NCBI RefSeq assembly: GCF_003857035.1
Contig: NZ_QGSY01000167.1
Location: 1-64,000, forward strand
DNA length: 64,000 nucleotides
Reading direction: 5' to 3'
Source: Micromonospora arida
Lineage (GTDB): Bacteria > Actinomycetota > Actinomycetes > Mycobacteriales > Micromonosporaceae
How positions within the stretch are numbered: the first letter of the stretch is position 1; each line of letters opens with the position of its first letter. Position numbers and translations under genes: made by a program. The notes beneath the pieces are model-generated. The model was not told the DNA's origin, did no database searches, and saw only the letters and a list, made by a program, of their open reading frames with translations. Shown here piece after piece: positions 4,206-16,200 of the stretch.

Positions 4206-4706
4206 ATGATCAAGGCCGGCTCGCCGGGGGGAAGGCTGACAATCAGGATGGGTGTCGTCACGACCGGGCTCTGCCTCGCCGTACCTGCTCTGTTCGTGCT
4301 CTGGTGGTGGGGCCGACCTCTGCTCACCGGCCGATGGAAGACTCCGGGCTGGTTCGTCGCGACGGCCGGGCTGTCGATCGTCGCCACCGCTGTCACGTGG
4401 TTCCTCGGGGCGTTCGCGGGTTCCTCCATGAGCTCGGAGGAGTCCTGCCAACAGGCCGGCGTCAGCTACGACAGTGCCTACCGCGCCGCGCACTGGCGTG
4501 AGTCGTCGAGGTGGTTCCCCCTCCACGATCGATGCAACGCCACCTACGACCTGGTGCCCGCCTGGGTCAACCCGGCCCTGGTGCTGCTGCCCCTGCTGGC
4601 CGTCCTCTGCATCGGCGTAGCGGTCTGGCTGGCCGTCGTGCGGCACCGGACCACGACGAGTCCAGCGTCGGCCCGCAGATCTTGGACACTTTCCGTTCTG
4701 CCTTGA
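4206..4706 (+). CDS. Small three-TM membrane protein of unknown function
   Basis: A 166-residue protein that I do not recognise. Hydrophobic segments lie near residues 17-37, 48-72 and 120-145. Between the second and third lies an about 45-residue, presumably extracytoplasmic loop with two cysteines (in SCQQAG and DRCNAT) that could form a disulfide. The start is uncertain: ATG at 4206 lacks a good ribosome-binding site, and ATG at 4248 (152 residues) is an alternative behind a GGGGGAAGG tract. The last residues and the stop codon are encoded by the left arm and loop of the palindrome at 4675-4727, so the C-terminal tail may have been altered by that element. Confidence 0.5.
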   Translation: MIKAGSPGGRLTIRMGVVTTGLCLAVPALFVLWWWGRPLLTGRWKTPGWFVATAGLSIVATAVTWFLGAFAGSSMSSEESCQQAGVSYDSAYRAAHWRESSRWFPLHDRCNATYDLVPAWVNPALVLLPLLAVLCIGVAVWLAVVRHRTTTSPASARRSWTLSVLP

Positions 4707-4727
4707 CGGAAACTGTCCAAGATCTGC
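4675..4727. repeat. Family B palindrome, copy 1 (AGATCTTGGACA)
   Basis: Two 21-base arms, GCAGATCTTGGACAcTTTCC and its partner, pair perfectly except for one C-C mismatch, around a 9-base loop. It overlaps the end of the membrane protein gene and could terminate its transcript. A second copy lies at 11589-11637 with the mismatch as G-G, meaning that copy is inserted in the opposite orientation. Confidence 0.7.
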
Positions 4728-10713: not shown

Positions 10714-11553
10714 GTGCTGACGGTGCCGGTACGCCAACTGGGGGAATCGGAGCGCCGCGCGGTCGAGCGTCTGCTCGACCATGACCCGTTCGCGGGCGCG
10801 CAGGTCGCCGAGCGGATCGCCGCGCGCGGACTCTCCTGGTGGCGGGCCGAGGGCAGAATCCTGGGGTACGGGGCTCGCCGCAACCTCGAGTCACTCTGCT
10901 GGCTCGGCGGCAACCTGACTCCGGTGCTGGCCAATGAAGCCGCAGTTGCTGCCTTCGCCGACCTGCTCGCGGGCGAGGAGCGGCTCTGCTCCTCGATCGT
11001 CGGCCGCGCCGATGCCGTCCTCGGGCTGTGGGACCGCCTCTCCGACACGTGGGGGCCAGCGCGAGACGTCCGCCCCAATCAGCCGCTGCTGGTCACCGAC
11101 ACGCTGCCGCCCGTACCGGCCGATCCGGAGGTACGCCAGGTTCGCTCCGGCGAGGTCGACCGGCTCTTCCCGGCGGCGGTCGCCATGTACACCGAAGAGG
11201 TCGGCGTCTCCCCGCTTGCCGAGGACGGCGGCCGCAGCTACCGCCGGCGGGTCAACGACCTGGTCCGCACCGGTCGCGCGTACGCCCGCGTCATCGACGG
11301 CAAGGTCGTGTTCAAGGCCGAGCTGGCCGTCGTGACCAAGCGGACGGCGCAGATCCAGGGCGTCTGGGTGGCACCGGAGTGGCGAGGCAGGGGGATCGCC
11401 ACCGCCGCCATGGCAGCCGTGGTCCGCGACGCGCTGCTGCGGGTCGCCCCCACCGTCAGCCTGTACGTCAACGACTTCAACCTCTCGGCCCGCCGCGTCT
11501 ACGAGCGCTGCGGCTTCCAGCCGATCGGCACTTTGGCCACCGTCCTCTTCTGA
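10714..11553 (+). CDS. DUF4081-GNAT N-acetyltransferase
   Basis: A 279-residue acetyltransferase with an N-terminal DUF4081 domain (about 1-110) and a C-terminal GNAT domain. The acetyl-CoA loop is at about 214-232 (QGVWVAPEWRGRGIATAAM), and the closing NDFNLSARRVYERCGF segment is the GNAT beta-bulge/helix region. From memory this family follows ispG in many actinobacteria (Rv2867c in M. tuberculosis), so its place here five bases after an inserted MFS gene is informative. CAGGCT at 10701-10706 lies seven bases before the GTG, so it may have its own leaderless promoter as well as read-through from the exporter gene. The substrate is unknown. Confidence 0.9.
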   Translation: MLTVPVRQLGESERRAVERLLDHDPFAGAQVAERIAARGLSWWRAEGRILGYGARRNLESLCWLGGNLTPVLANEAAVAAFADLLAGEERLCSSIVGRADAVLGLWDRLSDTWGPARDVRPNQPLLVTDTLPPVPADPEVRQVRSGEVDRLFPAAVAMYTEEVGVSPLAEDGGRSYRRRVNDLVRTGRAYARVIDGKVVFKAELAVVTKRTAQIQGVWVAPEWRGRGIATAAMAAVVRDALLRVAPTVSLYVNDFNLSARRVYERCGFQPIGTLATVLF

Positions 11554-11588
11554 CCGCTGCGGTCGCTTGCCGGTGGTGCGTCCCGGCG

Positions 11589-11637
11589 AGATCTTGGACA
11601 GTTTCCGTTCTGCGCGAACGGAAAGTGTCCAAGATCT
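11589..11637. repeat. Family B palindrome, copy 2 (inverted relative to copy 1)
   Basis: AGATCTTGGACAGTTTCCGT and its complementary arm are interrupted by a single G-G mismatch at the same position where copy 1 (4675-4727) has C-C. Inverting copy 2 therefore reproduces the arms of copy 1. It lies 35 bases after the GNAT stop codon. Confidence 0.7.
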
Positions 11638-11660
11638 GCGGGTTGCGGAGCACGGAGATG

Positions 11661-11700
11661 CCGCTGGCCGGCACCCCGGGTAGGGGGTGCCGGCCAGCGG
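11661..11700. terminator. Bidirectional hairpin terminator
   Basis: A perfect 17-bp GC-rich stem (11661-11677 with 11684-11700) and a 6-base loop lie between the convergent GNAT and lysozyme-like genes. There is no T-run, as is common in actinobacteria. Confidence 0.75.
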
Positions 11701-11756
11701 TCGGTGTCGTGCGGGTGGTGCTTAGGTGCGCTGGTTCTGCGATGGTGTGGTGCGGG

Positions 11757-12323
11757 TCAGCTGTTCCAGTACTGGCCGACGAGGTCGGTGGCCTGCTGCT
11801 CCCACTGGGCGTAGGCGTCCGGGTAGGCCGACACCTGCACGGTCTGGGCGGCGTCGGTCAGGGGCATGTCCTGCCACCCGTCGACCTGCTTGAGGCCCTT
11901 GAGGAACGCGGTGGTGGAGTAGGCGGGGTCGGTGATCTGCTCCGGCGTACCCCAACCCGAGCTCGGGCGCTGCTGGAACAGGCCCAGCGAGTCGTGGTCG
12001 TTCTTGTCGCCGAGGTGGCCGAGGTTCTCGAGCTTCGACTCCTGCAGGCTCGTCGCGATCGAGATGACCGCGGCCCGCTCCGGGAGGCCGGCCTTCTTGG
12101 TGGCGGCGATGATCGCCTTGACGTTGGCGCTCTGCTCGTCGTTGAGGGTGATGTGGGACTGCTCGCCCTGCGGCTTCGGCGCCGCCGACGGCACGGCCAC
12201 CGCGACCGGCTTGGCATCCACGGCCGGGGTGGCGGCGTGGGCGGCGATCGGGCCGGCGAAGACACCACCGGCGAACGCGAGACCAGCAACAGACAGCATG
12301 CTCTTACGGAAGATCGTATTCAT
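11757..12323 (-). CDS. Secreted lysozyme/transglycosylase-like protein
   Basis: A 188-residue exported protein with a Sec signal peptide ending near residue 30 (AHA). An Ala/Pro/Val-rich linker runs to about residue 55, followed by a domain resembling the SLT/lysozyme fold. The LQESKLENLG segment places the presumed catalytic glutamate at residue 95, and the later DSLGLFQQRPSSGWG stretch is characteristic of the group. It probably cleaves peptidoglycan glycan strands for growth or separation; a non-enzymatic wall-binding role is possible. The start at 12323 is fixed by GAAGGAGC just upstream. A leader of 145-330 nt with three ECF-like promoter motifs precedes it, suggesting envelope or oxidative stress control. 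Confidence 0.8.
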   Translation of the reverse strand: MNTIFRKSMLSVAGLAFAGGVFAGPIAAHAATPAVDAKPVAVAVPSAAPKPQGEQSHITLNDEQSANVKAIIAATKKAGLPERAAVISIATSLQESKLENLGHLGDKNDHDSLGLFQQRPSSGWGTPEQITDPAYSTTAFLKGLKQVDGWQDMPLTDAAQTVQVSAYPDAYAQWEQQATDLVGQYWNS

Positions 12324-12342
12324 CAGGGGTAGCTCCTTCGGG

Positions 12343-12390
12343 GGTAGAACACCCGACCGCCAAAAGGGGGGGCGGCGGCAGGGTGTGAGC
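12343..12390 (-). promoter_or_regulatory. Leader hairpin before the lysozyme-like gene
   Basis: On the minus strand CACCC-TG-CCGCC pairs with GGCGG-TC-GGGTG across a 12-base C-rich loop, ending shortly before the GAAGGAGC ribosome-binding site. It could modulate translation or terminate transcription early. I compared the leader by eye with the c-di-AMP riboswitch known before actinobacterial wall hydrolases and did not find its conserved core. Confidence 0.35.
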
Positions 12391-12475
12391 ACCTCGTCCG
12401 GCGCTGCACAAACAAGGGGAAAGTCTTCGAGGTCGGCGTCTCGACGAGTGAGGGCTCGTGGCGCCGGGTCCCTGT

Positions 12476-12503
12476 GTAACGACCGGGGGGCCGGGGTCAT
12501 TCC
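12476..12503 (-). promoter_or_regulatory. ECF-sigma-like promoter motif, copy C
   Basis: On the minus strand GGAAT, 18 bases, GTTAC. The spacing and sequence match the SigR/SigH-type consensus (GGAAT-N18-GTT) known from Streptomyces and mycobacteria. It is the copy nearest the lysozyme-like gene, about 150 bases from its start codon. Confidence 0.5.
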
Positions 12504-12565
12504 GGGGCTGGCCCATCCCGTCGGCACCCTCATCGAGGCGGTGCCTGCGGCCGTTCGTGGGGATC

Positions 12566-12593
12566 GTAACGACCGGGCGGAGGCCGCCATTCC
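12566..12593 (-). promoter_or_regulatory. ECF-sigma-like promoter motif, copy B
   Basis: Again GGAAT-N18-GTTAC on the minus strand, 90 bases upstream of copy C. The bases just before GTTAC (CCGGTC) are identical to copy C and share GGTC with copy A, so more than the bare hexamers is conserved. Confidence 0.5.
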
Positions 12594-12657
12594 CATCTAC
12601 GACCAGGCCCCAGAAGGTCAGGGCGGCGGGTCGGTGGTGCTGCGATCGTCAGAATGT

Positions 12658-12685
12658 GTAACGACCCCGGGCCAGCCATGATTCC
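12658..12685 (-). promoter_or_regulatory. ECF-sigma-like promoter motif, copy A
   Basis: GGAAT-N18-GTTAC on the minus strand, 92 bases upstream of copy B and about 335 bases from the start codon of the lysozyme-like gene. GTTACACA follows here and at copy C. Confidence 0.5.
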
Positions 12686-12802
12686 AGCCCACGGGTGCGC
12701 CCGACCACAACCCACATCGCCCATAGGCCGACAAACGTTTCAGGCGGCGCAGGGCTCTGGCCATGAAATCACCCCTCTCCCGAGTGATCCACTCGCGTAC
12801 AT

Positions 12803-12857
12803 GAAAGTCGGGGTGTCCCGAACGCCCGGACACCGCGATATCAAGGAAGTCGAGCTG
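12803..12857. repeat. Family A repeat, copy 3 (degenerate)
   Basis: AAGTCGGGGTGTCC is present as in the other two copies and is followed by GGACACC, giving a 7-bp stem. The rest of the right arm has diverged; a second GGAAGTCGAG half follows at 12844-12853, next to a TGATCA. Confidence 0.55.
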
Positions 12858-13225
12858 ATCAAAACCCCTGAAGCGTCGCGGATTGGACAGATCGCGTCAG
12901 ATCAGTCAGAACGCCCATAGGGCTCCGCGCGGCCGCCGGTCCTGCCGCCGCTGCCCCGGGCGTGGGTGGCTCTGTCTCGGGCGTGGCCGGCCCTGGCCCG
13001 GGCGTTGCGGCTCTGCCGGCCTCTGCTGACGTTTGACCCGGAAACTGTCGGCTCGGCCCAGTCGCCACAGTCACCCTGATCGTCGCCGGGCTGCCGTGTC
13101 GCTGTGCTGCCGCCGCCACTGAACGGACTGACGGATGCCCTGCTCAGGGCCGGAAAATCGGTTGAGTTGACGGGGTTGGTGCCGGCAGGCTGAGGTCTCC
13201 GCCCCCCACGTCCCGGAGGACTTTC

Positions 13226-16200
13226 ATGCGCCTGCTCCGTGATCTGTGGGGCACTTCGACCCGTCGTGTGACGATCGTGGCCGTCCTGATCGTGCTGGGC
13301 GCTGCGGGGCAGGCGGGTGCGTCGGCGCTGGCCGGCGCGGTGCTGGTGCATCGTTCGGCCGGCTTCTTCGCCGTACTGGCCGCGGCCCTGGTCGCCGTGG
13401 TCCTCAGCGACCTCGCGGTGAGCCTGCTGATGGCCGGCCTGACCGCGGACTGGTCCGCGGACGTGCGTCGCCGGCTCTGCCGTGTCGCTCTCGGGCAGGA
13501 CCTGCCCACCTTGGAGACCACTCCGGTGGGCGAGTTGCTGGACCGGATCGACGGGGACGTCTACCAGGTGGCGTCGGCAATTCGTAACCAGGGCACCCGG
13601 CTCGCCCAGGGCCTTTGCGTCGGTCTGTTGTCGATGGTCGTTGCGGTGTTCGTGTGGTGGCCGGCCGGGGTCGCGATGCTGCTGCTCACTGTGGTGCTCG
13701 CGGTCGGCCTGCGCCGGCCCACGGCGCGGATCGGCCCGGCCCGGATGGCCGAGGAGGAGGCGTGGTCCGACCTGGCCGCCGTGATGGAGGAGGCGGTGCA
13801 CGGCCAGGACGACGTACGCACCAGTCTGGCGCGGCCGTACGTGCTGCGGTTGTACGCCCGGCGGGCCTCCGCCGTGCTGTCCCGTGGCCTGGTGGTCTGG
13901 GTGCTGTCCGCCCGGGTGGCGACGGTGGCCACCGCGACGATCCGGGCGGGCATCGGCGCGGTGGTGCTCGGCGGTGCCTGGGCGTTGGCCACCGGCCGGA
14001 TCGACGCCGCCCGGCTCACCGCCATCTGGCTGCTCGCCCTGGCCTTCGGGGCGACCGCGGAACACGTCAGCCGGATGGTGCCGGAGATCCAGGAAGCGCT
14101 GGGCGCGTGGGCGCGGGTGCAGTTGCTCTACAAGGCCCGGCAGGAGCCGGTCGGCGGGGCCAGCCCGAGCGAGGGTGACCTGCGCATTCGGGACCTGACA
14201 TTCGGGTACGGGGAGAGTGACCGGGGGGCCGCGCTGCGCGGGCTCAGCCTCACCTTCGCGCGCGGTCGTTCGTACGCGCTGATCGGGCGGACCGGTTCGG
14301 GCAAGTCGACGCTGGCGAAGGTGCTCACCCGGGCGGTCGACGTGCCGCCGGGCACTGTCTTCCTCGGCGGCACCGACCTGTGCGACCTCGACGTCGAGCA
14401 ACTGCGCCGCTGGGTGGCGTTGGTGCCGCAGCGCACCGAGATCCTGGCCGGCACGCTTGCCGAGAACGTGGCGCTCTTCGACCCGGAGTTGCTCGACGCG
14501 GCGGCTCGGGCGCTCGACGAGCTGGGCCTGGCCAGCTGGATCGCCGAGCTGCCGGACGGGTTGACGACCCGGCTGGGGGAGGGCGGGCATGTGCTCTCCG
14601 CCGGTCAGGAGCAGTTGGTGGCGTTCGCCCGGATCCTGGTCCGGGAGCCGCACGTGGTGATCCTCGACGAGGCCACCGCTCGGCTGGACCCGGTCACCGA
14701 GGCGCGGGTGCAGCGGGCCACCGAACGACTGCTGCGCGACCGGATCGGCATCGTCATCGCGCACCGACTCTCCTCCGTGCGCCGCTGTGACGAGGTGGTC
14801 GTCCTGGCCGACGGCGCGGTGGTCGAGGCCGGTCCACTGGAGACGTCGACGCGCTTCGCCGAACTCCTGGCGACCAGCCACGCCGCCGCGTACGCGACGG
14901 TGGTGCCGGCCGGTCGCACCGGCGTCGGCACGGACCTGCTGGTCGGGCCCGGCCCGGCCGACCCCTGGCCGAGCGAGCCGGCACCCGCGCGGGCCGAGCC
15001 GAATGGGCAGACCGCGCGGGCGACAGCGCCGGACGGCCCGCAGGGCGCGGTCGGGCCGGTCCGGGCCGACCCACCGCCGCTGCCGCCGGTGCCGCCGGCC
15101 CGGACGCTGCGGGAGATCTTCCGACTCTGCACCAACGATCCCCGGTACGGTGCGGCCGCGATCGTGCTGTTCCTCGGGCTCAGCCTGCTCGGGCTGGACG
15201 GCCCGGTGCTGCCCTGGCTCTGGGCGGACCTGGTCGACGGGACGGGCAACCCGTACCTGCCGGCGGTGGGGATCGTCGCCGGGTTGCTGGTCACCCTGCC
15301 GCTGCCGTTCTACACCCACGTCTGGTTCCCGCAGTGGTGGGTGCGGCAGATGCTGCGGATCGGCCTTCGCCTGGTGCACGGCCAGACCGGGCCGCGCCGG
15401 GTCAGCTCACACACCCCCGCCGAGGTGGTGGCGCAGGGCGGGGACACCGAACGGGTGGTCCAGCTCGCCGACAACGTGCTGGACCAGGCCGTCGCGCTGG
15501 TGCTCGTGGTCGCCATGACGGCGGTCACCGGCAGCGTCGTACCCGGGCTGTTCTTCCTCGGCACGATGGTCGTCTCCGGGCTGGCCGCGACGTTGTTCGG
15601 GCCGAAGCTGGAGCGTGCGGCCCGGGCGACGGTGGCGGCGCGGGCCTCCTTCGCCACGGCGCTGGTCTCCGCGCTCTCCGCGGCGCGGACGGTGAAGCTC
15701 GCCGGCGCGACCACGGCGGTGCTGCGCCACCTGGCGGGCCTGGACGTGCTGCGCAGCGACCGGCAGCGGCGGGAGATCTCGGTGCAGGTGTGGGCGCGCT
15801 CCACACCGTCGATGGCAAGTGGGCTGTTGCCGATCGGCGCATGGGCGCTCTACCTGAACGGCTCGCTCTCCGCCGGGGCGGTGCTGGTGGCCGTCTCCAC
15901 CCTGGGCGCGGCCCGCTGGTTCGCCTGGACGACGGCGTCCTTGATCTCGCAACTGCCCTCGGCGCGGGTCTGGACCCGGCGCACGGCGGCGATGACCGGG
16001 GTGAGCGCGTACTCCGCGGGGGTGCCGGAGGTCGACCTGACCGCCGGGACGGCGCCCGCGCCGACCATGCCGCCCCGGCATCCGCTGCGCCGGCTGGAGC
16101 TGCGCGGCTTCGGGGTGGTGCACTCCGACGGCACGGTGGCCGTCCGGGACGTGGACCTGACCGTGCAGCGGGGGCAGTTGGTGCTGGTCGTCGGGCCGGT

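Follow-up and report, generated by a model that had tools for sequence, protein, structure and literature searches.

The gene for a predicted secreted muramidase in Micromonospora arida is preceded by three serial copies of the motif GGAAT-N18-GTTAC, all reading toward the gene, and by a conserved leader carrying a structured RNA element. We consider it probable that these copies act as tandem promoters read by a single ECF sigma factor, with SigR/SigH as the leading candidate, and that they feed one gene. A search of the window (the whole 64-kb stretch of DNA analysed here) returned exactly three matches to GGAAT-N18-GTTAC, on the minus strand only, against a mean of 0.00 in 100 dinucleotide shuffles. 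The copies start 92 and 90 bases apart and GGTC stands directly 5' of GTTAC in 3/3 of them, as a preliminary description of this DNA had claimed, down to identical positions. The features on which the analysis rests are these:

12658..12685, minus strand: putative promoter motif copy 1 (distal), GGAAT-N14-GGTCGTTAC, by sequence match
12566..12593, minus strand: putative promoter motif copy 2, GGAAT-N14-GGTCGTTAC, by sequence match
12476..12503, minus strand: putative promoter motif copy 3 (proximal), GGAAT-N14-GGTCGTTAC, by sequence match
12324..12475, minus strand: leader from the last motif to the start codon, conserved in orthologues, from leader alignments
12388..12405, minus strand: hairpin B of the leader, AGCGCC / GGTGCT, from the structure model
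12349..12386, minus strand: hairpin C of the leader, a covarying stem, from the structure model
12325..12406, minus strand: leader RNA element, match to covariance model R1 (43.0 bits, E 3.8e-9), from the covariance search
12333..12336, minus strand: Shine-Dalgarno GGAG, from sequence, with GGAGC conserved in aligned leaders
11757..12323, minus strand: gene for a predicted secreted GH184-type muramidase of 188 aa, with E95 as the catalytic Glu, from homology and predicted fold

The start codon was taken as the ATG at 12323, which a signal-peptide-like N-terminus, the Shine-Dalgarno sequence and conservation support; a longer in-frame ORF begins at 12596. Neither Pfam nor NCBIfam gives a match to the 188-residue protein at E 0.001 (SLT_3 appears only below threshold). 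Profile searches match it to the solved GH184 muramidases of Kionochaeta (8b2e, E 2.1e-27) and Thermothielavioides (8b2h, E 3.7e-27), single-sequence searches match the same two domains at E 9.5e-15 and 8.8e-13, and the predicted fold matches GH184 at E 2.4e-4 in a model of only moderate confidence (mean pLDDT 60.6). E95 and D109, invariant in 20/20 aligned sequences, align with Kionochaeta Glu41 and Asp66. In the portions of the literature drawn on collectively here (PMC9205884, PMC4921905, PMC10012870, PMC2375139, PMC10394673, PMC2864571), Glu41 of the Kionochaeta enzyme is described as essential by mutation, with Asp66 nearby, and bacterial GH184 members as lacking the SH3-like wall-binding domain. 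The product of the window thus matches a secreted GH184-type muramidase by prediction, in keeping with the lysozyme-like wall hydrolase announced by the preliminary description. It shares the catalytic domain, the predicted fold and the Glu and Asp with 8b2e and 8b2h, but is bacterial and apparently secreted, has no SH3-like wall-binding domain and belongs to a set of amplified paralogues.

In order to follow the motif independently of its own sequence, we compared the 80 nearest named loci, picked by protein and not by motif and all from Micromonospora. Upstream counts used 73 of these, since L154, L161, L178, L179, L200, L207 and L214 have fewer than 600 bases upstream. On this comparison, where loss of the motif from orthologous upstream regions would by the preliminary description's own criterion have refuted the idea, GGAAT-N18-GTT is retained in 73/73 loci, with at least two copies in 71/73 (2 copies in 24, 3 in 34 and 4 in 13) and 0 sites on the reverse strand. 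Three copies, called unusual in the preliminary description, are instead part of the rule for this family, in which two to four copies are found in 71/73 loci. When GTCGTT is required, 72/73 loci keep at least one copy, but when GTTAC is required 21/73 have none, many of them carrying GTTG instead. The preliminary description had proposed checking whether GGAAT and GTTAC, but not the spacer, are conserved: GGAAT and GTT are kept, the spacer drifts, and the position following GTT takes either A or G.

The fuller consensus of the 73 loci is GGAAT-N14-GGTCGTT(A/G)CA, with nearly fixed spacing and a less conserved spacer made chiefly of G and C. GGTC is part of the motif, which continues to CA past GTT: at 215 sites chosen by GGAAT alone, the G, C, G, T and T of GGTCGTT each stand where expected in 94-96%, and the T of GGTC in 88%. 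When the gap before GTCGTTAC was allowed to range from 3 to 33 bases in eight genomes, it was exactly 15 in 72 of 77 matches. Similarly, among pairs of GGAAT and GTCGTT lying 0-60 bases apart in the 73 orthologue upstream regions, the gap is 15 bases in 179/184, as compared with a shuffle average of 0.02 for those 179. Neighbouring copies start 56-229 bases apart, and the last copy ends 123-269 bases 5' of the start codon. The form GGAAT-N14-GGTCGTTAC occurs in 54 of the 61 genomes of a genus sample. In a family sample, GGAAT-N15-GTCGTTAC occurs in 56 of 200 genomes and 13 of 44 genera, that is, in 33/38 genomes of the same genus and 23/162 of the others.

The source genome (an assembly of 7.15 Mb in 345 contigs) contains 19 matches to GGAAT-N18-GTTAC, while the reversed-pattern control gave 0 on one strand and 1 on the other. 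GGTCGTTAC is present in 16 of the 19, and these 16 form arrays of the same type on contigs C2, C69, C99, C139, C159 and C196; three of the arrays, one where C2 begins and those of C159 and C196, could not be traced to a gene. Several contigs terminate within arrays, a break that near-identical repeats would produce, and the paralogous stretches are 86-89% identical in DNA across 1.0-1.2 kb. The motif is absent from 5/5 distant muramidase paralogues, and a closer one, L015, has one GGAAT-N18-GTT (L021 and L144 yielded no row in this comparison). The pattern GGAAT-N15-GTCGTT gave 21 matches in the genome, three of them at loci of a C39-like family (contigs C34, C106 and C283) and one within a coding gene on C77; some C39-like arrays also have copies with GGAAC and GGTTAC. 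A plasmid search gave no match. Chance as the origin of the arrays is ruled out by the shuffles, the reversed-pattern control and the orthologue counts at 73 loci.

To see what lies behind the motif, we collected 53 loci of the genus (37 + 16) with either the motif or its GTTAC form as bait. In 45 of them the downstream gene belongs to one of two unrelated secreted families, that of the window muramidase or the C39-like one (PF13529 match, E 3.9e-21). Another seven reach a contig end, and one (L006), a single GGAAT-N18-GTTAC of the source genome with no array, stands upstream of an MFS-transporter-like gene. In other genera, 25 of 29 loci (several overlapping) carry a member of one or the other family, cut before the diagnostic core in two cases, and four reach a contig end. 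Other Micromonosporaceae have arrays in five genera, and a sixth (g34) has single motifs. These arrays carry spacings of their own (69, 85); the doublets of genus g32 are 85 bases apart, or 86 in one genome. A mobile repeat as the whole account of the motifs was rejected because they follow two gene families in one orientation. Six single matches in distant genera (L053-L058), at which the same simple test found no secreted gene, look like chance.

A separate observation concerns one genome of another genus, G116, in which five motif doublets, each exactly 85 bases apart, occupy 32 kb (C1:7029251-7061005). The gene was read only at the first, and the doublets suggest a tandem amplification of the muramidase gene there.

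The core of the arrays is that of promoters read by SigR in Streptomyces and SigH in Corynebacterium and Mycobacterium, with which they share GGAAT, a gap of 18-19 bases and GTT. As far as the available parts of the sources cited above go, the published SigR consensus is GGAAT-N18-19-GTT, rbpA is a SigR target, and in C. glutamicum GGAAT marks SigH-only promoters. The SigR/SigH-type ECF motif that the preliminary description had recognised before the gene is borne out by its equality with this consensus, its strict spacing, its single orientation and its retention in orthologues. A -35 GGAAT with a -10 GTT at 18-19 bases was found in 73/73 loci, and the source genome has a SigR orthologue, the one match above the cut-off (351.9 bits), while another 28 sequences score lower against the SigR model. 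GGAAT-N19-GTT lies upstream of sigR in 16/16 genus genomes and upstream of rbpA (L258-L273) in 16/16, in the latter case about 40 bases before the start. Since the consensus matches, the orthologue is present and GGAAT-N19-GTT precedes both sigR and rbpA, SigR is the best candidate. Against this reading stand the N19 and missing GGTC of these two genes, the GGAAC and GGTTAC copies of some C39-like arrays, the array-less motif at L006 and, among eight readable rbpA loci outside the genus, the five lacking GTCGTT and the three with GGAAC. The arrays differ from known SigR/SigH promoters in their two to four serial copies per gene, in the added GGTC and (A/G)CA and in having a secreted muramidase as target. 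Our literature search, which lay outside most subscription journals, found no tandem SigR-type promoters in Micromonospora and no report of this leader there.

Each copy would thus offer a -35 GGAAT, an 18-base gap and a -10 GTT, flanked by GGTC and (A/G)CA. Since every copy reads toward the same gene, one sigma factor would activate it through several equal entry points, whose outputs should add up. All transcripts would share a folded leader ending at the Shine-Dalgarno sequence, which may set translation or RNA stability. Streptomyces SigR responds to thiol oxidants and, via WblC, to antibiotics, according to the parts of the same sources that treat it. By analogy with Streptomyces, release of the sigma factor, for instance by thiol stress or antibiotics, should raise wall-cutting activity, the product being a predicted secreted muramidase.

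The arrays might instead be ECF promoters of a different sigma factor, specialised on N18 plus GGTCGTT. We regard this as rather unlikely, but it deserves attention because the N18 and GGTC of the arrays are missing from sigR and rbpA of the genus, which have N19 and no GGTC, and the difference is consistent. Candidates for such a factor abound, as the source genome has 102 Sigma70_r4_2 matches, not all of them sigma factors, besides the 28 that score lower against the model for SigR. The core GGAAT-N18-GTT, however, is the published SigR consensus, and rbpA outside the genus has N18 in 8/8 readable loci (five with GGAAT, three with GGAAC), with GTCGTT in three of the eight and absent in five. 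(The rbpA loci L279, L283 and L287 and the sigR locus L248 were unanchored and left out, and a second rbpA paralogue otherwise fell outside the comparison.) Further, a crude search with imprecise frame choice, over 30 candidate sigma loci taken from the 102 matches, saw the motif in front of none of them, and on inspection none of the 21 GGAAT-N15-GTCGTT matches of the source genome was linked to a sigma gene.

Two other readings do away with several working promoters. In one, a single copy works and the rest are leftovers from duplication of a 5' module (promoter, leader and signal peptide) shared by the paralogues and the C39-like family. The identity of 86-89% over 1.0-1.2 kb between paralogues speaks for such copying, as do the leader element and similar signal peptide at the C39-like loci L007 and L042; but at least two copies are kept in 71/73 loci, the motif is kept while its spacing varies from 56 to 229 bases and its spacer drifts, and other genera have arrays with spacings of their own (69, 85), so that we find this reading improbable. 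It is yet harder to see the repeats as activator or repressor sites with transcription starting elsewhere, an alternative that we judge very improbable. The conserved GGTC and CA around GTT are real extra bases and the copies are serial, and the spacings cluster weakly at 10.5 bases among 61 non-redundant but related pairs (R 0.31, p 0.004 in our own jitter test). This idea, already raised in the preliminary description, is weakened by the lack of a dyad, since GGAAT and GTTAC are not inverted repeats, and by the 0 reverse-strand sites in 73 loci; moreover, the core is a known promoter consensus and the spacings of 85 or 86 bases in other genera are off the 10.5-base phase. Tandem promoters for one ECF sigma factor, with SigR/SigH as the first candidate, therefore remain the reading we prefer.

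We also examined the leader between array and gene. A covariance model built on eight leaders (R1) matches 75 of 81 sources (the window and the 80 loci), each match ending within 3 bases of the start codon, and has no match elsewhere in 333 kb; two of the 75 are members of the training set. Of the six misses, L154 and L161 have fewer than 40 bases upstream and L214 has 56, while L213, L217 and L227 are true misses. Two further loci with 49 bases upstream gave partial matches. On 47 further loci R1 gave three matches at E <0.01, with 0/20 among controls; they comprise one of the 12 muramidase loci from outside the genus and two of the 15 C39-like loci (L007 and L042), where the element stands just before the start codons. 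Among the loci tested, the leader element is nearly confined to Micromonospora. The genes at L007 and L042 are unrelated to the muramidase yet resemble it in signal peptide as well as in this element, which looks like the trace of a copied 5' module.

For structure, 55 of 85 leaders were removed as near-duplicates. Hairpin B is nearly invariant and thus uninformative on covariation. Hairpin C has both-side changes in four of six pairs and 97.8% of cells paired in alignment A9, which was fitted to the structure. Of 500 shuffles of A9, 120 reached four both-side-changed pairs and 3 reached the observed count of further pair types; none came up to the observed values for paired cells, both-side-changed cells or covariation score. 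When the partners of hairpin C are slid, the share of paired cells drops from 98.2% to 15-59%. Taken by itself, the segment of hairpin C, which in some cases included neighbouring bases, folds better than shuffles with a mean z of -3.1 (n=27, 20 below -2), and whole leaders only moderately better (mean z -2.12, n=30). Against the leader structure, RNAalifold on a MAFFT alignment (A5) missed hairpin C and found both-side changes in 0/7 pairs. A candidate 5' stem, CCGGCGC/GCGCCGG, has its 5' arm in 28/30 leaders and its 7-base partner in 11 of those 28, partly overlapping hairpin B, and pairing of the Shine-Dalgarno sequence with AGCGCC averages 0.27 over 73 leaders. Rfam 15, searched with window positions 11000-13500 and six loci, gave sub-threshold matches only, none of them in the leader. 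The element has in common with structured 5' leaders and riboswitch candidates a covarying hairpin beside the Shine-Dalgarno sequence, but differs in having no Rfam 15 match and in its near restriction to Micromonospora in the loci tested.

Putative promoters of one type and a folded leader before secreted wall-cutting enzymes suggest an unusual layered control of wall breakdown. Throughout a genus that produces antibiotics, secreted wall hydrolases would here be linked to the promoter type of SigR, the sigma factor of redox and antibiotic stress. The natural arrays of one to four equal putative promoters are well suited to asking whether tandem ECF promoters add up, and a covarying leader RNA is added whose role is open to direct testing. 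More speculatively, and with considerable doubt, one may imagine a dedicated wall-breakdown programme of the Micromonosporaceae in which one stress sigma factor acts through tandem promoters, graded by copy number, in front of amplified genes of the muramidase and C39-like families, while leader RNAs of a new class form a second, signal-dependent gate on translation.

Other repeats were seen around the gene. A perfect 17-base inverted repeat (11661-11700) lies 3' of the muramidase gene in a terminator-like position, and an inverted repeat with 22-base arms, 95% complementary, is found together with a related copy at 11589-11637 and 4669-4727. Finally, a CGGTGTCC..GGACACCC palindrome marks a dispersed element, some 76 bases long, at positions 12785-12861; copies of the element, 77-81% identical, lie close to the other arrays of the source genome and to the C39-like locus L008.
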